64,000 nt of DNA from assembly GCF_000230735.2 (NCBI RefSeq), contig NC_019963.1, positions 62,001 through 126,000 of the forward strand, written 5' to 3'. This DNA is from Natrinema pellirubrum DSM 15624 (GTDB lineage: Archaea > Halobacteriota > Halobacteria > Halobacteriales > Natrialbaceae). A program made the position numbers and the translations under genes. Under the pieces are notes generated by a model that made no database searches, was not told the DNA's origin, and saw nothing but the letters and a program-made list of their open reading frames with translations. Within the stretch, counting starts at the first letter, position 1. Each line of letters opens with the position of its first letter. This document shows, one piece after another, positions 10,872 through 63,340 of the stretch.

Positions 10872-10927
10872 CGTGCCATCGGAGGTCTTTGCTGGAGAAC
10901 ACGGTATTCGATTGTCGTAGCGGTCGT

Positions 10928-12094
10928 TTACGTTATTGGGAGGACGACGAACGAGAGATATGACAGGCCAGTCGCGACCGAGGGGCCAATAATCCAAAAC
11001 GAGACAAACCGCACCACTGCTGACGGGTCAAACAACTCGCCAGCATCCTGCAGGTCTTCGGCGCTTTCTTCACCGATCTCCGGCACCTCCTTGTCCGTTT
11101 CCACCGTTACAGCGTTAACTGAGACACTCCCTTCGATCTCACCGCGTGCGAGGTCAGGTACTGTCGTGGTGCGTGTCGCCCGCCCCCACCCAAGACCGAC
11201 GATGGTCATGACGGTCGAGAGAGCGAGGCTGATTGGGATACCAAGCCACGAAGCGACCGTCGTGATGGTCGCAGCGACGACCATTACGATCGTTGCAGCC
11301 ATCAATGGCAGATCAGTGAGCCCGTTCCCAACGGATTCCATCGTTCGTCGAGCGATCGTGAAGGCCCCAATCCCGATCGCGATGGTTCCGAGACCAACTG
11401 CCCAGTCAGGACCGAGGAGATCGCCACCGACCAGCGGTGCAACAGCGTTCGCGATGTTGCTCGCGCCTGCGCTGAACGACATATAACAGGCGATGAGAAA
11501 GACGAGGGTCGTACTGACGAGTTCACGCGGCGTCGTTCCTGGACCGAGTACGGGCCGTGGAACCATTCCTGACGAGTCGTACGTGATGAGCGGCCCCTCG
11601 GTCTGCTGGATCGCGAAGAGGCGATCTAAATGTGGGTAAAGGTAGCGCCCGATCACAGCACCACACCAAAAGCCGATGATTGGTGCAATAATCCACCAAA
11701 CGACGATCTCGCCCATCACAGCCCAGTTCAACGAGTTCGTCGCGAGCCCAAGTCCCGCAATCGCACCGACCGCTGTCATCGAGGTCGACACAGGGACGCC
11801 ATAGATATTGGCGAACAACATCCCCAAGCCGATGAATGAGAGGACGACGATACTCGCCTCGATAGAGAACGCGGTTTCAGGAACGATCTCACTCCCGAGC
11901 GTATCGATCACGTTGCGACCCACAGTCCACCCACCGAAAAAGACGAAAAAGGTCATCAGGGCCGCAGCAGCGGTCTTGTTGATGACTTTCGCACCGACCG
12001 ACGGCCCCCACGCGACACCGGTCGACGAGCCACCGATGTTGAAGCCAACGAATACCGCTGCCAACAGGCCAATGAGGAAAAGAACGGAAACCAT
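10928..12094 (-). CDS. PiT-family inorganic phosphate transporter
   Basis: This is a 388-residue integral membrane protein with the two PiT signature repeats. The first is near the N-terminus (FVGFNIGGSSTGVAWGPSVG) and the second mid-protein (SFSAGASNIANAVAPLVGG), matching the GANDVANA-type phosphate/cation motif. About ten hydrophobic segments are visible, with a cytoplasmic acidic loop (EVPEIGEESAEDLQD) before the last helices. PiT carriers take up phosphate with H+ or Na+. I chose the ATG at 12094; a GTG at 12106 is four codons longer. A possible regulatory partner is the broken UspA gene divergent from it. Confidence 0.9.
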   Translation of the reverse strand: MVSVLFLIGLLAAVFVGFNIGGSSTGVAWGPSVGAKVINKTAAAALMTFFVFFGGWTVGRNVIDTLGSEIVPETAFSIEASIVVLSFIGLGMLFANIYGVPVSTSMTAVGAIAGLGLATNSLNWAVMGEIVVWWIIAPIIGFWCGAVIGRYLYPHLDRLFAIQQTEGPLITYDSSGMVPRPVLGPGTTPRELVSTTLVFLIACYMSFSAGASNIANAVAPLVGGDLLGPDWAVGLGTIAIGIGAFTIARRTMESVGNGLTDLPLMAATIVMVVAATITTVASWLGIPISLALSTVMTIVGLGWGRATRTTTVPDLARGEIEGSVSVNAVTVETDKEVPEIGEESAEDLQDAGELFDPSAVVRFVSFWIIGPSVATGLSYLSFVVLPIT

Positions 12095-12189
12095 ACTAAA
12101 AGTCACTCGTTAAACATATGTATAAGTTGCGAACCCTACTTCGAATATTGAGATAAGTTATCCACAGTATTTATTGGGCGGTCGGCCCT

Positions 12190-12619
12190 ACGTAGTGTAT
12201 AATTTCACGCATTCTCGTTCCGATAGATGACTCAGAGATGGCTACACGGGCGCTCAGGTACGCCTTAGAGGTCCACCCGAGCGCTGAAGTCACCGTGTTA
12301 CACGTGGCCGGCGATCCGTCAGGGATGATGGGCAAGGTGGTGGGAATAGCTCTTGAAGACGATATCCAACAGGCAGCTGAGGACGCCGCAGAGGTCGTTC
12401 TCGCTCAGGCCCGGGAGATTGCGAAAGAATACGATACAGATATCGAAACCGATGTTGGGTGGGGAAGCCCGGCAAAAGTGATTGTCAAACGGGCGGGAAG
12501 CGTCGATGCAGTCGTTCTGGGAAGCCATGCAGGGTCGCTAGCGGATAGATTATTCGTGGGAGATATTGCGAAAAACAGTGTTTCGTCGATCTCCAGTCCC
12601 GGTAACCGTCGTCCGATAA
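12190..12619 (+). pseudogene. Universal stress protein gene with frameshift
   Basis: The frame encodes ILVPIDDSEMATRALRYALE, the UspA opening, but no ATG, GTG or TTG precedes it in frame. Upstream codons run back to a TAG at 12193-12195. The ATG at 12238 would omit the first beta-strand. Near the 3' end, a run of five A (12571-12575) shifts the frame. Removing one A restores KTVFRRSPVPVTVVR and a stop at 12617-12619, the normal UspA ending. The gene is therefore probably inactive, unless the A-run is a sequencing error and an unusual start is used. Confidence 0.75.
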
Positions 12620-12895
12620 TCGTATCTGGGCTATTGTTCTTGGAGTGGCATTGAAGATAAGTTTTTGGCGAACAGAGAGAGTCACCGGGTCACAGATAGT
12701 TACTCTTCATGAAGGACTACCCGGTGAGGAAAGGCTATGCATTGGACCGACCAGTCTCAACTTCTGCGCGACCGCCGTTCGGACCCGGTTCCGAGAATAA
12801 TCGCGAGACTGCAAGCAGATGGCTTGCTACACAATCTGCATAATGTACAATGCGCACGAAATCTGAATGATGAGGGAAATCACCCAAATCCAATG

Positions 12896-13381
12896 TTATT
12901 CGTTCGTAGCTTGCTCGCTCAGCATCTCCACAACTTCCTGAACACGTTCCTCATCGGCTTCGATACCACGCTCCCGGAGGATCTGGAGGGCGACCTCATC
13001 ACCGTGGTCCGCAATTACCCGGAGACACGCATCTTGAAACTCTCTTCCCTCAAATTCGGGAACATCAAACATAGAGCACGCAGCAGTTACCGATGATCGC
13101 ATCCGGGTGACGCCATTCCACGTGTCCTCCCGGACATAGAAGCCGTGCATATCGGTCTCATCAAAGGAGAAGGCCGGTCCACCGGTGGATTCGTCCACAT
13201 CCTCCTCATCCTGCTCAGGAATGGACTCAGTCTCCGACTCTGTGTCCTCGGGAATTATCTCTTCATCCGGTTGCGGTTCATCCTGAGTGTCAGTACGTTC
13301 GTCGTCATCCGATTCGGCTCCTTCCTCCGTTTGTTTGAGCTGTTCAGCGACGTCCCCGAAACGGTCGTCCTCATTAGGCAT
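12896..13381 (-). CDS. ParA-associated small acidic protein, probable partition partner
   Basis: The product has 161 residues. The first 75 are very acidic and probably disordered. The rest is folded (HGFYVREDTWNGVTRMRSSV, EGREFQDACLRVIADHGDEV, EERVQEVVEMLSEQ). Its start overlaps the 3' end of parA by 8 nt, so the two are translationally coupled. In plasmid partition loci the gene after parA commonly encodes the DNA-binding centromere adaptor. I infer that role here; no ParB or ribbon-helix-helix motif is evident. Confidence 0.75.
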   Translation of the reverse strand: MPNEDDRFGDVAEQLKQTEEGAESDDDERTDTQDEPQPDEEIIPEDTESETESIPEQDEEDVDESTGGPAFSFDETDMHGFYVREDTWNGVTRMRSSVTAACSMFDVPEFEGREFQDACLRVIADHGDEVALQILRERGIEADEERVQEVVEMLSEQATNE

Positions 13382-14246
13382 GGCTGTGTTCCTCCACGAG
13401 GTCCGCTAAGTGGTCGAAATTCGGGATTTGGTCGCAATCTTCGTCGAACTCCGAGACCGGCATTCCTTGCTTGAACGCGCGAGAAATCGCGGTCCGTTCG
13501 CGAATCCCTGGCTTCGGAATACTATCGATGGTGCGTCCCGAATCATCGAGGGCATCGAAGATCTCCGGGTCCACACGAGCGTACTCGGGGACGAATGAAC
13601 CGAACTCCCGGTTGAGATTTTCAACGAGAGTCCGATGCTCGTTGCGTTGTCCCATTGTTTCGCGAATCATATTCGGAGTGACTGCGAGGATATCCAACCC
13701 GATATTCTGCCGGATTGGGGAGATCTGGCGTTCAATCATCTTATTGAGGCCGTTGATCGAGCCAGCACGCGGGATTAGCGGGATTATGACGCGCTGGACG
13801 GCGATGAGGGCGTTGTCGGAGAGTTTCCCACGGCCGCCTGCGGCATCAATTATCACGTAGTCGTATCCGTTTTGAATGAGCGGATCGACAACGTTCCGTC
13901 GAAGCTTCACGTCTGCGAACCGTTCGTCCTTCAGCCTCGTCTCGACGTTCTCGAGCTCGTTACTCGACGGGAGTAGGTGAACGCCGAAGTCCGTCTCGAT
14001 AAGCAGGTCTTCGGGGTCCTCACCATCGATAAGGGCGTCACCGAGGTTCGCATCTCGGTCGTACGCATCGTCGTATCCCAACTGGGTCGTCATGTGCCCG
14101 TCCTTATCCAGATCCAATAGTACCGTCTCATGGCCACGAGCAGCGAGTCGATCAGCGATGTTGAGCGCGATCGTGGATTTCCCTACCCCTCCCTTAAGCA
14201 ACGAGACAGCTGCTCCGGGGAGCCCTTCAAACTCGTCAGCACTCAT
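13374..14246 (-). CDS. parA: ParA-family partition ATPase
   Basis: The 290-residue protein has the deviant Walker A motif KGGVGKST at residues 18-25, with the signature Lys18 needed for the ParA sandwich dimer. It also has switch I in DLDKDGHMTTQLG and Walker B in YVIIDAAGGRGKLSD. It acts on the nucleoid to separate plasmid copies. It has no N-terminal helix-turn-helix, which places it nearer small ParA/Soj proteins. The partner gene is coupled downstream, and an AT-rich repeat array lies directly upstream at 14.27-14.62 kb. Confidence 0.92.
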   Translation of the reverse strand: MSADEFEGLPGAAVSLLKGGVGKSTIALNIADRLAARGHETVLLDLDKDGHMTTQLGYDDAYDRDANLGDALIDGEDPEDLLIETDFGVHLLPSSNELENVETRLKDERFADVKLRRNVVDPLIQNGYDYVIIDAAGGRGKLSDNALIAVQRVIIPLIPRAGSINGLNKMIERQISPIRQNIGLDILAVTPNMIRETMGQRNEHRTLVENLNREFGSFVPEYARVDPEIFDALDDSGRTIDSIPKPGIRERTAISRAFKQGMPVSEFDEDCDQIPNFDHLADLVEEHSHA

Positions 14247-52250: not shown

Positions 52251-53939
52251 TCAACAGATCAGTAAGAATAGCCAATATGGAAGATAGCAGACATCGCTAT
52301 CGTCATAGGAAATACGCAGCGAACCCTGCTCGAGTATGTCTTTCGGAAGACTATCTGTGATGATGAACCGGCAGGGTGCTTTGTAGTTGTAGTCTTGTAG
52401 CTCCTCGCTACCGGGTTTCGTGTGTTGGCCGACCGCAGGATCGAATTCGATCGCAGTTTGTTCGGCAGCGTCCGTATTGGGATGGTAAGAGAGTACGAAC
52501 GGCAGAACGTTTCCCTCGCACTGTAGGACGTAATCCACGAGTCCAGAGTTCGTCTCGCAGTATTCGACGTCGTAGGCGCCGACGGTGAACGCGAGACGCT
52601 TTGCGTGGTCGAACGCGACCGTTCTGGCCAATTTGTACTCGAATTCGTGATTGAGTGTGCCTTCGTGACTGTACTCCTCGAATCCATAGTGTTCTTGACG
52701 CTGTGATAACAGAACAACGTGCCGGGGATTGCGGAGATACAGACGAGTTCGTCGATATCGACGAAGCGAGTAATCGTGGGACTCGGACACTGCAATTCCC
52801 TCATCCAATGCCTCGAGATAACTGTCGACAGTCCGACGATCGACACCGATTCGATCACTGATATCCGTGTATCGAAGTTCCTCGCCGGCTTGACTCGCTG
52901 CGATCGAACTGAGTTTGTGCAGATTTTCGGGCTTTTGAATGGATTCGTGCTTCGCTAACTCCTTGTACAGATACAGCAAGAAGTATGATTTAGTGAGTTC
53001 ATTTCGTACTGACGCGTCACTGGCACGGTGTACCGTCCCGCCGATTTGCAAGTACTCACGAGACGCATCGTGGAGGTCATCTCGCTGACTCGGTGAGAGG
53101 TGTTCAAAATAGAGCTCATTGAGGGACGCGATCGCGTCATCGATATTAGCACCACCGTCTCTCAAATTGAGCGACCGTCGAACCGCTTTGATCGGTGCTG
53201 GTCCGGGTAATCCGTCTGACTGATATGCTTCAAGTTGCTCCCTGAATTCGGAGCCGAGGTCCACTTGGAGGCCACCCTCGGCGGCGCGATGTTGAACCGT
53301 ATCGACGAATTTCATTGGGAGCACTGGTGTGGGGCCTTTGAATGCGTCTATTTCGTCGGCATCTGATCGAGTCTTGAGATCGACTTGCGAAGCGACGATT
53401 CCAGTGAGAAACAGATATGTTCGCTGGTCGACTAGATCGAGAAGCTCATTGTGTTCGTCTTCCTCGAGATTGAGCGCACCGATGTCGTCCAGAAATATGT
53501 ACTTTTGACCTCGCCGCGGAGCAACGTGTGAGTCGAAGTAGTCTACGACTTGCTTCAACCGCGTAATCGCATCTTCTGGCCGCTCTAAGTGATAGAGCGA
53601 CGCTTCGAGTGGTACATATAGTATCTGGCGTGGCGATACTGATCCTGCGATTTCGTGATCGCGTCCTCCTCCCGGAAAATCGGTTGTATCCAGCAGTGCC
53701 GCGATGAGCTGCTGGAAGAGAGTCGTCTTTCCCATTCCGGTCTGTCCGTAGATCTGGTAGACGAGATTTTCCGTGCCGTTTTGTCGCGCTTCGTTGACCG
53801 TTTTGAGAAGTTGGTGAAAGTCGGAACGCGGTGTGAGTGAGGCAGCTTCTAAGACTGTCGCCGGTCGCTCCTCCCTCCACCACTCATTGTGGCGCTTAGC
53901 GTCGGCGATAAACTTCTCTTCACTACCTGCGTCGGTCAT
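52251..53939 (-). CDS. AAA-family ATPase with C-terminal winged-helix region
   Basis: The 562-residue protein has Walker A in YQIYGQTGMGKTTLFQQL (about residues 63-72) and Walker B in KYIFLDDIGALN (about 146). A lid-like region follows, with a helix-turn-helix near residue 360 (YTDISDRIGVDRRTVDSYLE). The layout is that of archaeal AAA/DUF4143-type ATPases, which are common in defence islands and mobile elements. It is the first of two minus-strand genes facing away from the Argonaute. A role in the same system is possible but not shown. Confidence 0.75.
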   Translation of the reverse strand: MTDAGSEEKFIADAKRHNEWWREERPATVLEAASLTPRSDFHQLLKTVNEARQNGTENLVYQIYGQTGMGKTTLFQQLIAALLDTTDFPGGGRDHEIAGSVSPRQILYVPLEASLYHLERPEDAITRLKQVVDYFDSHVAPRRGQKYIFLDDIGALNLEEDEHNELLDLVDQRTYLFLTGIVASQVDLKTRSDADEIDAFKGPTPVLPMKFVDTVQHRAAEGGLQVDLGSEFREQLEAYQSDGLPGPAPIKAVRRSLNLRDGGANIDDAIASLNELYFEHLSPSQRDDLHDASREYLQIGGTVHRASDASVRNELTKSYFLLYLYKELAKHESIQKPENLHKLSSIAASQAGEELRYTDISDRIGVDRRTVDSYLEALDEGIAVSESHDYSLRRYRRTRLYLRNPRHVVLLSQRQEHYGFEEYSHEGTLNHEFEYKLARTVAFDHAKRLAFTVGAYDVEYCETNSGLVDYVLQCEGNVLPFVLSYHPNTDAAEQTAIEFDPAVGQHTKPGSEELQDYNYKAPCRFIITDSLPKDILEQGSLRISYDDSDVCYLPYWLFLLIC

Positions 53940-54029: not shown

Positions 54030-56309
54030 TTACAAGACTTGTCGCACAAGAGCCGCTTGAACGACTTCGTCCTTCGTTTCGTGAGGGCAGTTCTCGTTCT
54101 CGGTTGTCGCAACGATGAGTTCGTCCATCTCCTCGAGGGTACTGACCGGTAGCTCGCGATCATCGACATCGAGACCGATCGCATCGCAGAGTGTCTGAAC
54201 GACGAAGGACTCCGCGTCCGAGGCGTCATCGTTCGCCGCAGTAGTTGCGATGAGCTTCTCGAGTGCCGGATCGGCATCGATCGTGAGTTTTCGTTCTATG
54301 ATTCCTTCCCATTCGGACCACGGCTGGTTGCCCCGTAGCACTTCCGTGAGGTACGTTTTGACTGCCGACTCGACGAACGCTGCGGTCGATTCGCCCTCGG
54401 TACTGGCCCGGCGTTCGGCGAGTGTTCGAATTGCGGGATCGATCCGAACTGTTTCGTCGGTCACCGTCCCTGTTGTCTCTTCAGCTATAGTTTTGCTCAT
54501 TGTCGAATCCGAATCTTCCGTATTCTTGTCCTCGGTCTCGCTCTCAGTTTGCTCTGTGTACGAGACTGCAGTCGATTCATCAGTAGTTTCCGTCTCGGTA
54601 GCCGATTCGCCCTCTCCGAGGCTATCAGCATCTTTTCCGCTGGCTTCCTTCGATTCAGCTTTCGATGTCCGCTCGGCAGTAGTATCATCCGAGGAGGTAT
54701 TGCTCTCCGTTGACGCCGACTCGCACAGCACGTTGACGACCGTCGGATTTACGATCTCGTCAGGCACCTTCGACGGATTCGGCGTCACATACTTGGTGTC
54801 GTTCGATGGCTGATCGACAGTTCGATACAATCCGCCATCGGTCGCATGAGTCGGAGCGACGTGTGCGTTCTGCGTGGTAGTTGTCTCCGTTTCGGGCTCT
54901 ACGGATTGAGTCGCCACTGCCTCCTCGGGCTGAGATCGACCGATATGGAGTTCTTCGCGGAGCCGAGCGACGTCTACGCCTTCTTGTTCGAGGGTGGCCA
55001 TCCCTCGGCGCTCGAGTACCGGAACGCTCGCTGCCGCTTGCAGGACCCCGTCTCCGACGTCGATCGTGCTCCGTTGCTCGTCGCAATTACGCACACGTCG
55101 CTTCGCGGCATCACCGATCCAGTCCGGTGCACAGAAGTTTCCGTCCTGATACAACTGCTCCGTTCCGGAACTGCCGGTTGCCCACGTATATGCGTCCCAC
55201 TTGTCTTTATACCGCTTCAGGGATCGGCCACGCTGGTGCGTGATGACGACGTGGGTTGGAGCGATCGTTTCGACGACCTCGTCGAGAACCGCTTCGGTCG
55301 GATGGTTCGAAAACGTGAACGACGAAACGGTGCCAGCGAAGTCGCCGGCGTCTTTCGCAGTCGTGGTTCCGCCCTGAACCTGTATCAGCGTCGCATTCCC
55401 GTCGTCACGTATCGCCTCGAAGAGCCGTTCGCTGCTTCCCTCGGTCGGAACCTCCGGCCCGGCGATAGTTACGGTCCCTTCCTCGAGGCAGTCGTGAGGA
55501 ATCGCGAACTCTGGGATGGTCTCCACGTTCGGATAGTCATATTCCAATGCATCGTAGAGTTTCGCGACTTGTCCGACGAGAGTAACTGGAACTGAATAGC
55601 CGAGTTCGTGTTCGATCGAACCGAGAAGCGTTGCGAGGTGAACGCCAGTCAGTCCACTTGCCGTACAGAGCGTCTTCGAGCCAGCGTTGGCACGAGCGGC
55701 GAGCGTCTCGACGATATCAGTGATCGTCTCGTCGACGCCATCGTTCGTCGCGGCCGTGAGGAATAGTGCATCGACCTCGAGGAACTGTTCCGGATCGAAT
55801 CCGATGTATCCGCCAGCGTCGCGTCGTGTGAAGTCCCCGGTAGCGAGCGCACGGAAACTCTCCTGTCCGTCGCGGGCTCGAATCAGGAATCCGCACGCCC
55901 CTGGCGTATGCCCCGCTGGCACGGGGGCTACACTGATGTCATCACCGACGACATCGGCCCAGTCGTCGATCGCTTCGACTCGTTCGAGTATCGAGTCAGG
56001 ATCTGACATCGAATGGTGCCGTACACCTTCTGCTAAGACGTCCTCGAGGATCGCCGCTGTTCCGGGGGACGTGAAAATCGGTGCCCCGTCACGATGGGCC
56101 TCGTCCAACGATTGGTAGTGATCGAGGTGCGCGTGGGTGAGGAGTATCGCTGCCAAGTATTCGTCGTCACCGAGTAGTGTCGATGTGTCGACGCCGTCCC
56201 CCGCATCGACGAGAATGCAGGGAGTCTGCCGTTCGTACTCTCGTTGAACCCGAAGAAGAAACGACTCGTTGCCCGCCCTCGGATTCGCATGTTCGTAAGA
56301 AACCTCCAT
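54030..56309 (-). CDS. MBL-fold (beta-CASP-like) hydrolase with long acidic linker and C-terminal domain
   Basis: The product has 759 residues. The N-terminal metallo-beta-lactamase domain has the zinc motif THAHLDHYQSL (about 56-66) and further ligand segments (PAGHTPGACGF, RALATGDFTRRDAGG). It also has a beta-CASP-like SNHPTEAVLDEVVETIAP and VVITHQRG, as in RNase J and CPSF nucleases. Residues about 450-610 are low-complexity and acidic. The last 140 residues are helical (ESTAAFVESAVKTYLTEVLR). It is divergent from the Argonaute across 430 bp, so it may be a partner nuclease. Confidence 0.78.
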   Translation of the reverse strand: MEVSYEHANPRAGNESFLLRVQREYERQTPCILVDAGDGVDTSTLLGDDEYLAAILLTHAHLDHYQSLDEAHRDGAPIFTSPGTAAILEDVLAEGVRHHSMSDPDSILERVEAIDDWADVVGDDISVAPVPAGHTPGACGFLIRARDGQESFRALATGDFTRRDAGGYIGFDPEQFLEVDALFLTAATNDGVDETITDIVETLAARANAGSKTLCTASGLTGVHLATLLGSIEHELGYSVPVTLVGQVAKLYDALEYDYPNVETIPEFAIPHDCLEEGTVTIAGPEVPTEGSSERLFEAIRDDGNATLIQVQGGTTTAKDAGDFAGTVSSFTFSNHPTEAVLDEVVETIAPTHVVITHQRGRSLKRYKDKWDAYTWATGSSGTEQLYQDGNFCAPDWIGDAAKRRVRNCDEQRSTIDVGDGVLQAAASVPVLERRGMATLEQEGVDVARLREELHIGRSQPEEAVATQSVEPETETTTTQNAHVAPTHATDGGLYRTVDQPSNDTKYVTPNPSKVPDEIVNPTVVNVLCESASTESNTSSDDTTAERTSKAESKEASGKDADSLGEGESATETETTDESTAVSYTEQTESETEDKNTEDSDSTMSKTIAEETTGTVTDETVRIDPAIRTLAERRASTEGESTAAFVESAVKTYLTEVLRGNQPWSEWEGIIERKLTIDADPALEKLIATTAANDDASDAESFVVQTLCDAIGLDVDDRELPVSTLEEMDELIVATTENENCPHETKDEVVQAALVRQVL

Positions 56310-56736: not shown

Positions 56737-59280
56737 ATGCCGACGCAGTCCGATATCGAGGACGGGGAACGAATTGATATACAGGTCAAGGTCCTGTCCG
56801 AACTGGACCGACCCTCTGAAAAGATGGCAAAACGGCTTCGCGTTCGCGACACCGACGGAAACGAATTTCCGCTTACCATCTGGAAGAACAACGCCCTGTG
56901 CGACTTCGCATGGGAACGCGGTCGGTGGTATGAACTCGAAAACGCACGTGGCAACGAATTCCGTGGCGAAAAGAGTCTGAACGGTTCGTCACGACTGCAC
57001 GCCGACCCGGTTGACAATCCGATAGACTCTGATCGATCGCAGCAGTCTACGACAGCTGAATCAACTGACAAGCAATTCGATAGCCTAGAAGACGGACTCC
57101 CGTATCTCTCACTGTTTCCGATCGACCGTGAATTCGAGACCGTAGACGTCTACGAGTATCGGATTGAGGCCGACGGACCGTTCGACGATGATCCGATGGA
57201 CGCAACGTATACACTCGCCGCGTATCTTCGATCGTGTAGTGACGCTGCCGTCACGCACGCTGGTATCTTCTCGGTTATCGCGACCAATCGGTTGACGAAC
57301 GCGCTCCCCGATCCGTTTGAATTAACTGATGAGTCTCGAGTGACGCTTCGGGCGGACGACGAGACGGATAACGAATGCCTCGTTCGACTGCTCCAGCAAG
57401 TGTTCAAAACCGCAGTCGACGATGAAACGTACGAGACGGGTCGCGTCGATCGCATCCGGACACAGGACCCGGTCATCACGGGGCAAGATGGGCTCTTCGA
57501 GGCGTGTCTCGCGTACACGGCGCGTCTCGAAATTCTCCCGTCTGGCAAGGCGTTCGTCGGGATCGACATCAGTTATCATGCACGGAGCCAGGTTACCGTC
57601 GACAAGTACGTTGATCGGATCAATGCTTCCGTCGACGAACTCATCGATACGCCTGTCGAACATGATCCGGAAAGGTACGAAAAATCGGGTAGCGGCCGAC
57701 TCAAAGGATTTGCAGACGTAACGTTTACCGATCCCGTCGACGACTTCGGAAATCAGTCGCTCGCCGACTGGTACGAGCAAAAGGGCCGCATCTCCGACGA
57801 TATGCTCGAGCGACTTCGGTCGGAGGACCCACAGCTTGTCGAAATACAGTACAATCCCAATTCCGACGAGACGAACCTTCACGTCCCGCAATTACTCCGG
57901 GTCGCTCCGCGCAAGGAGATCGTCAAGAAGCTCGCGCCGACGTTCCACCGCAAATGGGACCGCGCCGCCAAGATGCTTCCCGACGACCGGTTCCGAAAGG
58001 CAACGCGATTCGTCGCTCGGCTGGATTCGCTTTCCGAGGTCGACGCGCAGATCGAACCCAATCCCGTCGGACCGAACATCTCGTTCATGTCTACGGAGGT
58101 CGACCGTTCAGACAACCTGCGATTCGGCGACGATCAAACGACGACCTTGCCGAACAACGGACTGAAGCGATACGGGATCTATCGCCGTCCATCGTCGCTC
58201 CACCTCCACTATCTCGTCCCCGAACGGTACACTGACGAGTTCGCGTCGTTCAGAGAGCAACTCGAACGACAGCTCGCCACCATCGGCTGCTCACCGGACG
58301 ACATCTCCTACGACGAGTACGGACTGGGGAACGCGATCAACTACAATACGACGGCCGCAGCGGTCGACGATGTCGATATCGTCCTCGCTGTCGTTCCCGC
58401 GCCGGACAACGACTTCATCCGGAACGGGACCATCGACGATCCGTATCCCGAGTTCAAGAAATCGCTCGGCAAGCAAACCATCCCGTCACAGATGGTCCGG
58501 GAGGACAACCTCGACGACAGGTGGATTCTCCGAAACACTGCGCTCGGAGTGATCGCAGGTGCCGGCGGAGTTCCGTGGCGCGTCGACGAGATGCCGGGCG
58601 ATGTCGACTGCTTCGTCGGCCTCGATGCGACACGCGACCCGGAGACTGGACAGTTCCTCGGGGCGAGTGCGAACGTCGTCCTCTCCGATGGGACCGTCTT
58701 CGTCTCGAAAACGCAATCGCTCCAGTCCGGCGAGACGTTCGACGAGAACGCTATCGTCGACGTTCTCAAAGACGTCCATCGCGAGTTCGTACGTGAAGAG
58801 GGCAAATCCCCCAATAACATCGTGATTCATCGCGATGGCCGCCTCTTCGAGGACGTCGATACCATCCTCGAACCGTTCGACGAAACGGACATCGATATCG
58901 ATATTCTCGACGTTCGAAAGAGCGGTGCTCCGCGAGCTGCCGTCTATCAAGACGACCAGTTCCAGGTCGATCACAAAGGCCGTCTCTTTGTCGCCCAGAG
59001 CGGTGACTACGGATTCCTCACGACGACCGGACGTCCGGAGTTCGATGAGGATGACGGACTCGGGACACCACGGTCCCTTCGAATCGTTCGACGAGCAGGC
59101 GAGACGCCGATGCGGACGTTACTGGAGCAGGTGTACTGGCTAAGCGAGAGTCACGTCGGGAGCGCACAGCGGAGTACGCGCTTACCGATCACGACGTACT
59201 ACGCCGATCGCTGTGCCGAACACGCTCGAGAGGGATATCTCGTCAATGGAGAGCTCATTCGCGGTGTCCCATACCTCTGA
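56737..59280 (+). CDS. Long prokaryotic Argonaute with N-terminal OB-fold (NgAgo-like)
   Basis: The 847-residue protein begins with an OB-like domain (IDIQVKVLSELDRPSEKMAK to WYELENARGNEF, residues about 12-80). The MID/PIWI half follows from about residue 540: YPEFKKSLGKQTIPSQMV is the guide 5'-end pocket region. The PIWI tetrad is D630 (CFVGLDATRD), E666 (QSGETF), D700 (VIHRDGR) and D824 (LPITTYYADRCAEH). All four are present, so a nuclease is likely. The C-terminus, TRLPITTYYADRCAEHAREG then YLVNG, closely matches the Natronobacterium gregoryi Argonaute. Such proteins use short guides to target DNA and act against plasmids or viruses. Confidence 0.92.
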   Translation: MPTQSDIEDGERIDIQVKVLSELDRPSEKMAKRLRVRDTDGNEFPLTIWKNNALCDFAWERGRWYELENARGNEFRGEKSLNGSSRLHADPVDNPIDSDRSQQSTTAESTDKQFDSLEDGLPYLSLFPIDREFETVDVYEYRIEADGPFDDDPMDATYTLAAYLRSCSDAAVTHAGIFSVIATNRLTNALPDPFELTDESRVTLRADDETDNECLVRLLQQVFKTAVDDETYETGRVDRIRTQDPVITGQDGLFEACLAYTARLEILPSGKAFVGIDISYHARSQVTVDKYVDRINASVDELIDTPVEHDPERYEKSGSGRLKGFADVTFTDPVDDFGNQSLADWYEQKGRISDDMLERLRSEDPQLVEIQYNPNSDETNLHVPQLLRVAPRKEIVKKLAPTFHRKWDRAAKMLPDDRFRKATRFVARLDSLSEVDAQIEPNPVGPNISFMSTEVDRSDNLRFGDDQTTTLPNNGLKRYGIYRRPSSLHLHYLVPERYTDEFASFREQLERQLATIGCSPDDISYDEYGLGNAINYNTTAAAVDDVDIVLAVVPAPDNDFIRNGTIDDPYPEFKKSLGKQTIPSQMVREDNLDDRWILRNTALGVIAGAGGVPWRVDEMPGDVDCFVGLDATRDPETGQFLGASANVVLSDGTVFVSKTQSLQSGETFDENAIVDVLKDVHREFVREEGKSPNNIVIHRDGRLFEDVDTILEPFDETDIDIDILDVRKSGAPRAAVYQDDQFQVDHKGRLFVAQSGDYGFLTTTGRPEFDEDDGLGTPRSLRIVRRAGETPMRTLLEQVYWLSESHVGSAQRSTRLPITTYYADRCAEHAREGYLVNGELIRGVPYL

Positions 59281-59344
59281 GACAGCGATGCTGTGAGCCC
59301 GAACCAACTCGAATCACCACTTTCAGACGCCCATTCCACGACAG

Positions 59345-61498
59345 ATGCAATTCGACATTCCGATTGACACCGCCGAAACGGACGATAGCTACGTCGAGAT
59401 TTTCAAAAGCTGGCGCTCGTTCTCCGACCTCTTCGAGGATGCACGACGGATGCGTGTCGTCACGTACTGCGACTCCCCGGAGTTCATTCTCGATCTCTTC
59501 GAGGATCTCGATGAACTGGAATCGCTTGAGGTGATCGTCGGTGACGTCGATGACTATCGCGAGCGACTCATCGACAAGCCGGACCTCGCTGACAGACTCG
59601 AGCGCCTTCGCCGGGAAGGGAAGCTCGTCATCTACCTCTGCGAGAATAAGGAAGTCCACTCCAAACTCTATCTGATCGAGTATGCAGACACCGCTAATGG
59701 GTCTGATGACGATATCGAGAGCGAGGGGAAAAGCGATCAAATGACGTTCGATTACGATGAGCAATCTGGAGAAGAAGACGAAGCCGAAAGATCGCCGGCG
59801 AAAGTCATCGTCGGTTCTCCGAACCTCTCACGCAATGCGTGGTCGAATCAGACCAACGTCGGCGTCGTGTACGAGACGACCACTGCCAGTGACCTTTTCG
59901 GGGAATTCGAAGATTTGTACCGAGACCACCGCGACTCGTATAATAACAGTGGTCCGTTCCTCGAGGATCTAACGGAACAGATCGAACACTCGGAGGACGA
60001 TCGAGAGGAAGTGATTAAACTCTTCACCGAGGGTGCGGTCGGAACACAAGACGAACTCGGTGAAGTCCACGGTCGTCTCGCCGATCACATCGATGCCGAG
60101 GTCGATACGGTCGATCTCGTTCTCGGAGACGGACATGACGAGGAATCATCGAGCGATGAATCCGAGACAACAGAGAGCGACCCTGTATCGGAAACTGACG
60201 ACGCTGAGCCGGGACTGGAAGATGCGCCGCAGGATCGTATCACGCTCTCGCTGCGAGGATACGACGAGTCGACTGTCGATACGTTATCGCAGATGTCGGA
60301 CTTCGATGCGACCGTCTCGAACGATACGTTGACGGCGACGCCTGATGCGTTTCAGCGGTATGCCCAGCAGGTGTTCGACGTCCCGACGATGCATCTCGAC
60401 CAAGAGGAAGACCAACTCAAATTCCACTACGATGGGACTGTCTATCGCCTTACCCGACCTCCAGGTGAGCCCCAACAGGTTAACGATGCTCTCGCTGAGA
60501 TAGAGGCGTACTTTGAGACCGTCGACGATTACGGGAATTCCAATAATCCCACAGCGGTGAAAGCACACATGTACGAGGCGCTTCTGTGGTTCTTCTGGGC
60601 ACCGTTTGCGAATCGACAAGCGGAGTTCTATCAGCGACACGGTATTAATCTCGATAAAGCCCTACCGTACCTCTACGTATTCGGCGAGTCGAACGGTGGC
60701 AAGGGGACGTTCTGTCGATTCGCCCTTTCGCTGATTAGCGGAAACCGAGTCGAAGCGCCGGTTGACGCCGACGAGATCGGCAAACGGAAGGTCCGTAATC
60801 TACGGTCGGTCCATACGTCGTTCCCGGTTGTAGTCGACGACATCACCAAGCAGAAGGTGAATTCGCTGGACACGCTGCGTAACTACTGGAGCGGCTGGAC
60901 CGGTGAGACGTCGTATCCAATGTTCGCGTTCATTTCGAACGACAAACGCCCCGGTGAGTGGTTCCGGAACCGGGCCAAGATTCTGCGATTCGACGTCAAC
61001 TTTATGACCTCACATCAAGGTGAGGCGGAGGTCAATCGGTTGATCGATACGGAGAATCCTCTCTATCAGTGGTTCGGATACGAGTATCTGAATCGAGATC
61101 TCGAACTCGGCGAAGATTCCGATGCACTCCGCGAAGTGCGAGAGGCGATGTTGGATCTATACGAATATGCAGATCGTTCGGTCCCCAATTACTTCCCGAA
61201 AGACCCGGCTGAGAACGCTTACGATACGGGTCGCGAGCGATGGCGGAACCTCATCGATCGCGAGGATGTGACGATCACCAGAGACGGAGATACGCTCCAA
61301 GTCACGTTCCCCGAATCGATGAACTTCGAACTCCACGAGTACAAGCGAGATCCGCCGATGACCGTTCGTATCGAAAAGCGGGGGCTAGATCTCATCATCA
61401 AAACGCCGGACGAATTCTTCGAGTGGTTAGGTGAGTCTACTGAAACAGGTCCACGTGGGAGTTTCCTCTCACGGGCCCGGTCAATTCTGAAACGATAA
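59345..61498 (+). CDS. PLD-like nuclease fused to an SF3-type ATPase
   Basis: The 717-residue protein starts with a PLD-type region: HSKLYLIE (His about 105) and GSPNLSRNAWSNQTNV (about 157), one HxK and one GSxN unit. An acidic linker and a middle domain follow. Then comes an ATPase core: Walker A VFGESNGGKGTF (about 445-456), Walker B FPVVVDDIT (about 493), a motif-C-like MFAFISNDKRPGEWF and an Arg in FRNRAKIL. This resembles superfamily 3 or D5-like helicases. It is 64 nt after the Argonaute gene on the same strand, probably one transcript, and would unwind or degrade targeted DNA. Confidence 0.75.
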   Translation: MQFDIPIDTAETDDSYVEIFKSWRSFSDLFEDARRMRVVTYCDSPEFILDLFEDLDELESLEVIVGDVDDYRERLIDKPDLADRLERLRREGKLVIYLCENKEVHSKLYLIEYADTANGSDDDIESEGKSDQMTFDYDEQSGEEDEAERSPAKVIVGSPNLSRNAWSNQTNVGVVYETTTASDLFGEFEDLYRDHRDSYNNSGPFLEDLTEQIEHSEDDREEVIKLFTEGAVGTQDELGEVHGRLADHIDAEVDTVDLVLGDGHDEESSSDESETTESDPVSETDDAEPGLEDAPQDRITLSLRGYDESTVDTLSQMSDFDATVSNDTLTATPDAFQRYAQQVFDVPTMHLDQEEDQLKFHYDGTVYRLTRPPGEPQQVNDALAEIEAYFETVDDYGNSNNPTAVKAHMYEALLWFFWAPFANRQAEFYQRHGINLDKALPYLYVFGESNGGKGTFCRFALSLISGNRVEAPVDADEIGKRKVRNLRSVHTSFPVVVDDITKQKVNSLDTLRNYWSGWTGETSYPMFAFISNDKRPGEWFRNRAKILRFDVNFMTSHQGEAEVNRLIDTENPLYQWFGYEYLNRDLELGEDSDALREVREAMLDLYEYADRSVPNYFPKDPAENAYDTGRERWRNLIDREDVTITRDGDTLQVTFPESMNFELHEYKRDPPMTVRIEKRGLDLIIKTPDEFFEWLGESTETGPRGSFLSRARSILKR

Positions 61499-61598: not shown

Positions 61599-62450
61599 AT
61601 GACAGGTGGCATCTCTCCCGGGGACAGGTGGCCGTACCATTACCGAGGATACGGACTAAGTGCAAATCAGGACGGAGAGGTGTGGTGGCAAGTTTACAAT
61701 GGAACTGATCGATTGAAACTTGAACCTACTCCGACTCGTCTCGTCGAGAATTTCCTCGGAATCAAGTATAAAGGCGGCGCCATGAGGGTTACAGAGGGTG
61801 GTGCCGTCATTTCGCGACTCGAGACCGATACCGACGGTGATTCGAACGACTACGAAACCATCTATGTCTGTGATATCGAGTTCGATGGAAAACTTGTCCC
61901 GCCTGAGAAACCGGAACACGCGGTACCGATCAATCCTCGTGGATTGAGTCCGGGAGATCTCTGGCCCAGTATCTACGACGGCGCCAAATATTCGTTCAGC
62001 GGCACTCGGTTCTGGTGGCAGAACGGAGCGACGAAACTCCGGCACTCGTTCGTCAACGCACTTCCTGACAGAATTATTGACGAATTGCGACAGCTGCGGC
62101 CCGATGGCGGGTCCTTTCAGATCACTCCGGCGGGTGATGTCCTCACACAAATCCCGACTGAGGAATCACCGCCTGACGTCCAAGAACAGTTCCGTGACCT
62201 CCCCCGCCCGGTCAAGCGGATCCTCAAGCTCCGACGCGATCGCGGCAATGTCGATATGTTACCGGTCTATGTCGGACAGCTATCGGAAGACGATCGTCCG
62301 ATAGAAATCGAAGAAGCGACCCGACTCACGGATCCATTGAGCGAGAAGGAGGAATCATCCCTCGAGGCGTGGGCTGCCATGGGTTCGTACGACGAAAGCG
62401 ACCTTTCGGTGGAGGACCACCGACTTGATGAGCCGGAGGGGGACCGCTAA
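61599..62450 (+). CDS. Unknown protein with two copies of a GDxWP domain
   Basis: The product has 283 residues. Two repeats are visible: SPGDRWPYHYRGYG...GGAMRVTEGGAVISRLE...TIYVCDIE, and SPGDLWPSIYDGAK...GGSFQITPAGDVLTQIP...PVYVGQLS. The first seems more diverged. The domain is Trp- and Gly-rich and beta-strand-like, and I do not recognise it. A TATA-like ATATAATT precedes the ATG. Its stop overlaps the next gene's ATG by one base. Its place directly after the Argonaute and PLD-ATPase suggests a shared system. Confidence 0.75.
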   Translation: MTGGISPGDRWPYHYRGYGLSANQDGEVWWQVYNGTDRLKLEPTPTRLVENFLGIKYKGGAMRVTEGGAVISRLETDTDGDSNDYETIYVCDIEFDGKLVPPEKPEHAVPINPRGLSPGDLWPSIYDGAKYSFSGTRFWWQNGATKLRHSFVNALPDRIIDELRQLRPDGGSFQITPAGDVLTQIPTEESPPDVQEQFRDLPRPVKRILKLRRDRGNVDMLPVYVGQLSEDDRPIEIEEATRLTDPLSEKEESSLEAWAAMGSYDESDLSVEDHRLDEPEGDR

Positions 62451-63340
62451 TGGGTACACAAGTGACTCAAGCGGCCCTCGAACAGCAGCCCACAGATGTT
62501 CCCGTAGAGGGAGGTCGACAAGTAACTGTCTTGCCTGGTGACCCATGGCCTTCTGCATATCGCGGCTCGGAATACAGCATCGTCACTTCGAGAAAACACG
62601 GCGCTGTCGCGAAATGGAGCCACATGGGTGATATCCAGGCAATAACGGATGTTCCGGACGGACTCCAGGAAGCTCTCCGTGATCTCGGGAAAGAGGCCGG
62701 TCTAGGGAGTTTTCGGCTGACAGCTGCAGGCGAAATCCTCACGAAAATACCTGATTCTGATTATCGGAAGAGAGGAAAGGCGCCTGTCTCCCGTGGGTAT
62801 ATTCCAGTCTACGTTGGACAGATCGAAGGAATGTTCGACTTTCAGGCGTTCTCGAACGATCCCGCCCCACCTAAGGCTGTGGGAGACGTAAGTGTCTGGT
62901 CCGGCCTATCATTCAAACACGGTGAAACATGGGCAGTGACTTCCGATGATACCCTCTGCTGGAGCTGGCAGGACTACTACTTCGAGTCAGCGTTCGATCA
63001 CTCAGAGATCGTAGAAATATACAAACGATTCCGCCCTCCTGGTGGGCTGATCTACATTAATGAACATGGTCATATCTGGGGGAATATAAACCGTGAGAAC
63101 GTTCCGGCGAGCGAACAAGAACGAATTGGTAAAGCCTTCAGTGAGTGGCAGCAAACGGCTTCGAATGCGGAGAGACGGCTCGTCACTCGTCGTTTGAAAC
63201 GAATGGAAAGTAAGTCTGCGCCTGACGGGCTTCTTCCAATGTATTTCGGTCATCTCAGCCAGTACGACGAGGGTCTTATTCCGAAACCTGTCGTCAACGA
63301 TGAGCACTACTTTACCGATACAGCGAAGGATCTGGATTAG
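62450..63340 (+). CDS. Unknown protein with two further copies of the GDxWP domain
   Basis: The product has 296 residues. It carries LPGDPWPSAYRGSE...LGSFRLTAAGEILTKIP...PVYVGQIE, and VGDVSVWSGLSFKHG...PGGLIYINEHGHIWGNI...PMYFGHLS. Each copy has the same order: GD-x-W, Gly-rich strand pair, then (P)xYxGxL. It is a paralogue of the preceding protein and is translationally coupled to it (TAATG). Two adjacent paralogues suggest a heteromeric complex. Function unknown. Confidence 0.75.
   Translation: MGTQVTQAALEQQPTDVPVEGGRQVTVLPGDPWPSAYRGSEYSIVTSRKHGAVAKWSHMGDIQAITDVPDGLQEALRDLGKEAGLGSFRLTAAGEILTKIPDSDYRKRGKAPVSRGYIPVYVGQIEGMFDFQAFSNDPAPPKAVGDVSVWSGLSFKHGETWAVTSDDTLCWSWQDYYFESAFDHSEIVEIYKRFRPPGGLIYINEHGHIWGNINRENVPASEQERIGKAFSEWQQTASNAERRLVTRRLKRMESKSAPDGLLPMYFGHLSQYDEGLIPKPVVNDEHYFTDTAKDLD

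Follow-up and report, generated by a model that had tools for sequence, protein, structure and literature searches.

The gene at 59345-61498 of the window, by which the whole 64,000-nucleotide stretch of Natrinema pellirubrum DNA analysed is meant, encodes a PLD-type nuclease joined in one chain to what is, judging from motifs, profile comparison and structural models, a D5/SF3-type helicase-like ATPase. Almost certainly, the product is the AgaP that has been published as part of the N. pellirubrum APAP system (PMC11442185), and the locus as such is already known. In that paper the protein is handled as a PLD nuclease only, a split of about 50 residues is given as a feature of AgaPs, and only ago-linked copies are covered; here, the ATPase half is added, the split is found to be the feature of a clade, and Ago-less copies are included. 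The preliminary description, which had placed HSKLYLIE, GSPNLSRNAW, a Walker A, a Walker B and ISNDKRP in one chain, is confirmed as an observation, all of these motifs being located in the 717-aa open reading frame, and its interpretation is partly supported. As an explanation of the whole, it is reasonably probable that AgaP is a nuclease-helicase-type module working for the neighbouring Argonaute.

Identity of the locus and its surroundings

The ago and agaP genes lie on the same strand, and the 64 bp gap between them (59281-59344) is within the range of 31-64 bp given in PMC11442185:

56737..59280, + strand: ago, long-A Argonaute, 847 aa (PADLOC pAgo, E = 0), ending 64 bp 5' of agaP
59345..61498, + strand: agaP, PLD nuclease plus SF3-like ATPase, 717 aa (ATG start; motifs, alignment and model)

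Every residue numbered in the AgaP of Cheng et al. 2024 matches the product of 59345-61498 by position (H105, K107, E112, G119, S120, D122, G157, S158 and N160), the numbering of the Argonaute (D630, Y570 and K574) agrees likewise, and the HxK(x)49GSxN spacing is that of the APAP system (PMC11442185). The identity with the N. pellirubrum AgaP rests on this agreement of numbered residues, spacing and intergenic length. A text search of PMC11442185 found neither 'ATPase' nor 'Walker'.

Cheng et al. described this haloarchaeal system and assayed the N. pellirubrum operon, in which ago and agaP are co-transcribed (PMC11442185). AgaP is toxic without Ago, which suppresses the toxicity; H105, K107, G157, S158 and N160 are all required for it, as it was lost in the H105A and K107A mutants and in alanine mutants of the GSxN residues. 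AgaP-dependent loss of plasmid was reported, and plasmid restriction requires catalysis by AgaP, that by Ago being dispensable. Against an ssDNA virus, Ago catalysis is required and AgaP enhances immunity, Ago still conferring partial immunity without it. Abortive infection was not seen, viral DNA being selectively suppressed, and soluble protein was not obtained by the authors (all PMC11442185). The earlier proposal that this chain could be the effector of the Argonaute locus had therefore already been shown experimentally, because toxicity depends on the HKD residues and plasmid restriction needs AgaP catalysis (PMC11442185).

The Argonaute retains an intact DEDD tetrad (D630, E666, D700 and D824, none of which varies among 18 Agos), and no other Piwi protein was found in its genome; its N-terminal ~80 residues (56737-57000) look OB-fold-like by eye. 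Two genes on the opposite strand lie upstream of it:

52251..53939, - strand: AAA/DUF4143 ATPase, divergent companion of ago (co-occurrence with ago loci)
54030..56309, - strand: MBL-fold protein, accessory (PF12706, E = 3e-8)

The AAA/DUF4143 ATPase is found near 22 of the 28 ago-adjacent AgaPs as against 4 of the 61 others (p about 1e-11, uncorrected for relatedness), and the MBL-fold gene is conserved, among the loci compared, only in L122 and L079. On the 3' side of agaP, 61599-63340 contains a tandem gene pair in which PGDxWPxxYxG motifs are repeated and for which no Pfam or NCBIfam family, and no relatives among the neighbouring loci compared, were found. Outside the window, the largest contig of this genome carries a decayed AgaP fragment containing two stops (C1:1688441-1688872; L002).

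One HKD site with a clade-limited insertion

The N-terminal half of AgaP comprises the following features:

59384..59989, + strand: PLD nuclease domain, aa about 14-215 (PF13091, Foldseek)
59657..59665, + strand: HxK, His105 and Lys107 (HSK, aa 105-107); invariant, mutants in PMC11442185
59693..59782, + strand: disordered acidic insert, aa 117-146 (pLDDT < 50); absent from 70/89 relatives
59813..59824, + strand: GSxN, Gly157-Asn160 (GSPN, aa 157-160); conserved, mutants in PMC11442185

The match of the window AgaP to PF13091 (E = 3.4e-4) falls below the family cut-off, and the same profile is found at E<=1 in 42 of 43 AgaP members, the best at 6e-8. H105, K107, S158 and N160 are invariant in 59 full-length relatives, and G157 is retained in 58 of the 59; a 43-row alignment of AgaP agrees. 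That the motifs arose by chance can be rejected because of this invariance across the family. When the AlphaFold model was compared with solved structures, Foldseek returned SauUSI, the NgoAVII R protein, Nuc and Zucchini as PLD-type targets, all targets being assigned to the N- or C-terminal half by their known folds and not by aligned residues; the match to Nuc (1byr) has a TM score of 0.60 by target length. Thus the PLD assignment made from the letters alone is upheld by the invariant HxK...GSxN residues and by the matches to Nuc, NgoAVII R and Zucchini.

The 49 residues between K107 and G157 include 16 that are Asp or Glu. In the model, a strand following HxK (aa 108-113) and another leading into GSxN (aa 151-157) flank the disordered segment at 117-146, and together with the Nuc match this bears out the view that a single HKD site has its halves split by an acidic insert. 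As a description of this protein the acidic insert stands, but it misleads if taken as a trait of the family: only 14-15 residues separate the Lys and the Gly in 70 of 89 distinct AgaPs, which rules out the insert as a defining feature, and it is confined to the window's clade and a sister clade. Two members, L143 and L145, read HSKVY at the HxK site and carry a longer insert. Given this short spacing in 70/89 and the tight hairpin of a second model, described below, the separation of about 50 residues is due to an insertion that interrupts an ordinary HKD site, a point relevant to the wording in PMC11442185 that AgaPs generally have it. Within the variable, disordered insert of the window's clade (about 59693-59782) there is a short conserved peptide, (S/D)QMT(F/L) or QQT(F/L), that is possibly a docking motif.

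Each AgaP chain has one H.K and one GSxN, and a search of the same chain for a second, degenerate HKD found none. With only these two half-motifs per chain, the inference from sequence that the PLD half probably acts as a homodimer, as the preliminary description had supposed, is a sound one.

A predicted D5/SF3-type ATPase in the C-terminal half

The second half of the chain carries the motif order of SF3 ATPases:

60452..61264, + strand: D5/SF3-type ATPase domain, aa about 370-640 (hhalign, Foldseek)
60683..60709, + strand: Walker A GESNGGKGT, aa 447-455; G447, G452 and K453 invariant
60827..60844, + strand: Walker B VVVDDI, aa 495-500; D499 invariant
60932..60952, + strand: SF3 motif C ISNDKRP, aa 530-536; N532 and P536 invariant
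60971..60973, + strand: Arg543, candidate arginine finger; invariant

G447, G452, K453, D499, N532, P536 and R543 are all invariant in the 59 full-length relatives, and R543 is followed ten residues on by an invariant F553, matching the R...F tail of D5 helicases. Alignment by hhalign of aa 370-640 with six haloarchaeal DUF5906 helicases covers 148 columns, which take in Walker A, Walker B and motif C as well as the Arg...Phe behind it (E = 1.2e-4, with a probability of only 55%). Of the controls, Rad50 aligned over just 18 columns, corresponding to the P-loop, and other families gave short or weak alignments. A sequence-only search of solved structures with AgaP gave no useful match.

The AlphaFold model of the window AgaP, made from a 40-row alignment from which plasmid-collection rows were left out whole, has a mean pLDDT of 81. 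Its best solved matches for the C-terminal half are the SCCmec helicase Cch (5dgk, E = 3e-7), the JCV and SV40 T antigen helicases (6e-5 to 9e-5) and the SaPI5 primase-helicase (7ola, 5e-4); against viral predicted structures, phage primases, primase-helicases and SF3 helicases came out on top. An adenylate-kinase-like P-loop, considered because of the GKGT sequence, was set aside on this fold result. The SF3-like assignment is accordingly supported by motifs, by the alignment to DUF5906 and by AlphaFold with Foldseek. The second model, built for an AgaP from the largest Ago-less clade, repeats the two-domain plan; its HKD hairpin is tight, its PLD fold matches are the same and its helicase match is weaker (SV40 T antigen, E = 2e-3).

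The Walker A that had been read as GESNGGKGT is present, but as GxxxxGKGT, with Gly in place of the usual Ser/Thr after the Lys. Relatives have GKGT, GKGM or GKDK at this point, never Ser or Thr directly after GK, with GKDK in 41 of 89 members. Because that Ser/Thr is absent and GKDK common, ATP hydrolysis by AgaP is uncertain, chiefly outside the window's clade. This weakened Walker A, together with invariant Lys453, Asp499, Asn532 and Arg543, would suit nucleotide binding over fast hydrolysis, and so a STAND-like alternative has to be weighed, in which the ATPase half, instead of acting as a helicase, serves as a sensor or a platform for oligomerisation whose assembly on a trigger joins the PLD halves, nucleotide binding alone arming the nuclease. 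The need of single-HKD PLD domains for dimers fits such a scheme. It is nonetheless rather unlikely, as the nearest folds (Cch, T antigen, SaPI5, phage primase-helicases) are replicative helicases and the genes replacing agaP in L079, discussed below, are a helicase and a nuclease.

Distribution with and without Argonaute

AgaP was found in 94 of 391 halobacterial genomes and a related Ago in 55, both being present in 39; no Ago was detectable in the other 55 genomes with AgaP. Binomial p-values computed on these occurrences are rough, as they take the genomes to be independent and leave clustering in defence islands out of account. While 27 of 55 haloarchaeal Agos lie <=5 kb from an AgaP, only 27 of 99 AgaP places lie <=5 kb from an Ago, and among 89 distinct AgaPs an adjacent ago is present in 28 and absent in 61. 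AgaP as an obligate partner of Ago is thereby ruled out, and the tie to Argonaute drawn in the preliminary description applies to the window locus but not to the family at large. A tree of the 89 AgaPs, quickly built and with some long branches, implies at least eight changes in the state of ago adjacency; even in the window's own clade, five of 11 members are without ago, lying amid AddAB-like genes, MrfA/Hrq1-like helicases and an RNase H-like HHH protein. In the 17 loci with both proteins, AgaP and Ago identities are correlated (r = 0.65, 0/5000 permutations). All 65 of the genome-scan loci are haloarchaeal, outside Halobacteria matches were to the PLD part only (2 genomes), and no AgaP relatives were found in viral contigs.

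This distribution bears on whether AgaP might be a free-standing toxin with Ago as its antitoxin, plasmid loss being indirect. The toxicity of AgaP alone and its suppression by Ago (PMC11442185) are what such a pair would give, but abortive infection was not seen and viral DNA was selectively suppressed (PMC11442185), and Ago cannot be a general antitoxin when Ago was not detected in 55/94 AgaP genomes; this explanation is considered very unlikely. The Ago-less majority poses the question of how toxicity is held off there.

Recurring neighbours and exchange of partners

Two sets of genes for processing DNA ends recur beside AgaP, in counts uncorrected for shared ancestry. An AddAB-like set, consisting of a UvrD-type helicase, a PD-(D/E)XK nuclease and a UvrD plus PD-(D/E)XK protein, is present at 14/28 ago loci and 7/61 ago-less ones, with the direct order ago-agaP-UvrD-PDDEXK-UvrD in one large clade. 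Genes for Mre11-like, Rad50-like and NurA proteins, an unnamed protein and HerA show the opposite tendency (24/61 ago-less, 4/28 ago loci). They form an operon, Mre11-Rad50-NurA-(about 225 aa)-HerA, adjoining many AgaPs (L089:423-8000 and similar), the fourth gene of which has no Pfam or NCBIfam match. The Mre11-like gene of this operon was found in 43/391 genomes, and at 18 of these 43 places an AgaP lies <=20 kb away; the operon looks accessory in haloarchaea since Haloferax volcanii is without HerA and NurA (PMC7776575). At L067 (about 10900-13700), and also in L065, L066, L069 and L076, AgaP is followed on its 3' side by genes of 109 aa, 163 aa and a 588 aa JAB-ThiF fusion, a trio with the look of a defence-associated module for ubiquitin-like conjugation.

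As RecBCD shapes pAgo guides in E. coli (PMC10269773), it is plausible, by analogy, that the AddAB-like neighbours supply guides to Ago. The same observations, with the presence of Zucchini among the fold matches, could be taken to mean that AgaP is itself mainly a guide-making nuclease for Ago, its toxicity being a side effect. This appears highly improbable, given that Ago confers partial virus immunity without AgaP and that plasmid restriction requires catalysis by AgaP and not by Ago (PMC11442185), both of which point to AgaP acting on the target.

The composition of one locus from the same family, L079, is informative in this respect. Identity to the window proteins is 92.5% for its AAA ATPase, 84% for its MBL protein and 91% for its Ago, and the layout is the same, but no AgaP was found in a search of its genome; at L079:3911-10343, what directly follows ago on the same strand is instead an MrfA/Hrq1-like helicase together with an XPG-type nuclease. 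This suggests, from a single replacement, that AgaP occupies a slot for a 'nuclease plus helicase'. Close Agos also accompany distant AgaPs in L081 (Ago 67%, AgaP 41% identical) and L102 (57% and 32%). Through such exchanges, nature has in effect tested which functions an active Argonaute needs downstream, namely a helicase and a nuclease. Neither this swapping nor the PLD-SF3 fusion has apparently been reported in the open-access papers searched (subscription papers and preprints lay outside the search).

A wider reading, offered only tentatively and as a single joint proposition, is that AgaP may not have originated as an accessory of Ago and may serve a haloarchaeal anti-plasmid network as an exchangeable nuclease-helicase of PLD-SF3 type. 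That network might be built from Mre11-Rad50-NurA-HerA or AddAB-like DNA-end machinery with Ago as one of several partners, and Ago might alternatively use the MrfA/Hrq1-like helicase and XPG-type nuclease in the AgaP slot.

Proposed mode of action

In the preferred reading, that of a module working for the adjacent Argonaute, the PLD half would cut DNA, probably as a homodimer completing its active site from two HKD halves, while the C-terminal SF3-type ATPase, probably ring-forming, would bind DNA, unwind it or gate the nuclease, with replicating plasmid DNA as a possible site of action. Argonaute loaded with small guides would restrain AgaP and direct it to extrachromosomal DNA. The dimer, the ring, ATP use, unwinding and direction by Ago are steps that we infer. 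In favour are the catalytic residues, which are invariant and essential in vivo (PMC11442185), the SF3/D5 fold, the 64-bp gap and co-transcription, the 27/55 Agos near an AgaP, the correlated identities, the L079 swap and the two-domain plan of the second model; the Walker A without Ser/Thr, the hhalign probability of 55% and the weaker helicase match of the second model argue against it. How AgaP and Ago distinguish plasmid from chromosome was a question left open by the authors of PMC11442185, and a viral-type helicase half could explain it.

Comparison with known systems

SauUSI (7clg) likewise combines a PLD nuclease with an ATPase in one chain, and the NgoAVII R protein (4rct) joins a PLD nuclease to a DNA-binding part; both belong to the best matches to the PLD fold. 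Whereas SauUSI contains an SF2 helicase and an SRA reader, and NgoAVII R a B3 domain, AgaP has an ATPase of SF3 type, and no modified-base reader is known in it. With the D5/P4-type SF3 primase-helicases (DUF5906, SaPI5 and SCCmec Cch) it shares the fold and the order of Walker A, Walker B, motif C and Arg, but a PLD nuclease replaces the primase and the Walker A Ser/Thr is missing. The effectors of long-B and short pAgos (BPAS and SPARTA; PMC10620215, as cited in PMC11442185) resemble AgaP in being toxic partners adjoining an Argonaute, and the Agos of those systems are catalytically dead and bring about abortive infection. By contrast, the window Ago has a full DEDD tetrad, and abortive infection was not seen with the APAP system (PMC11442185).
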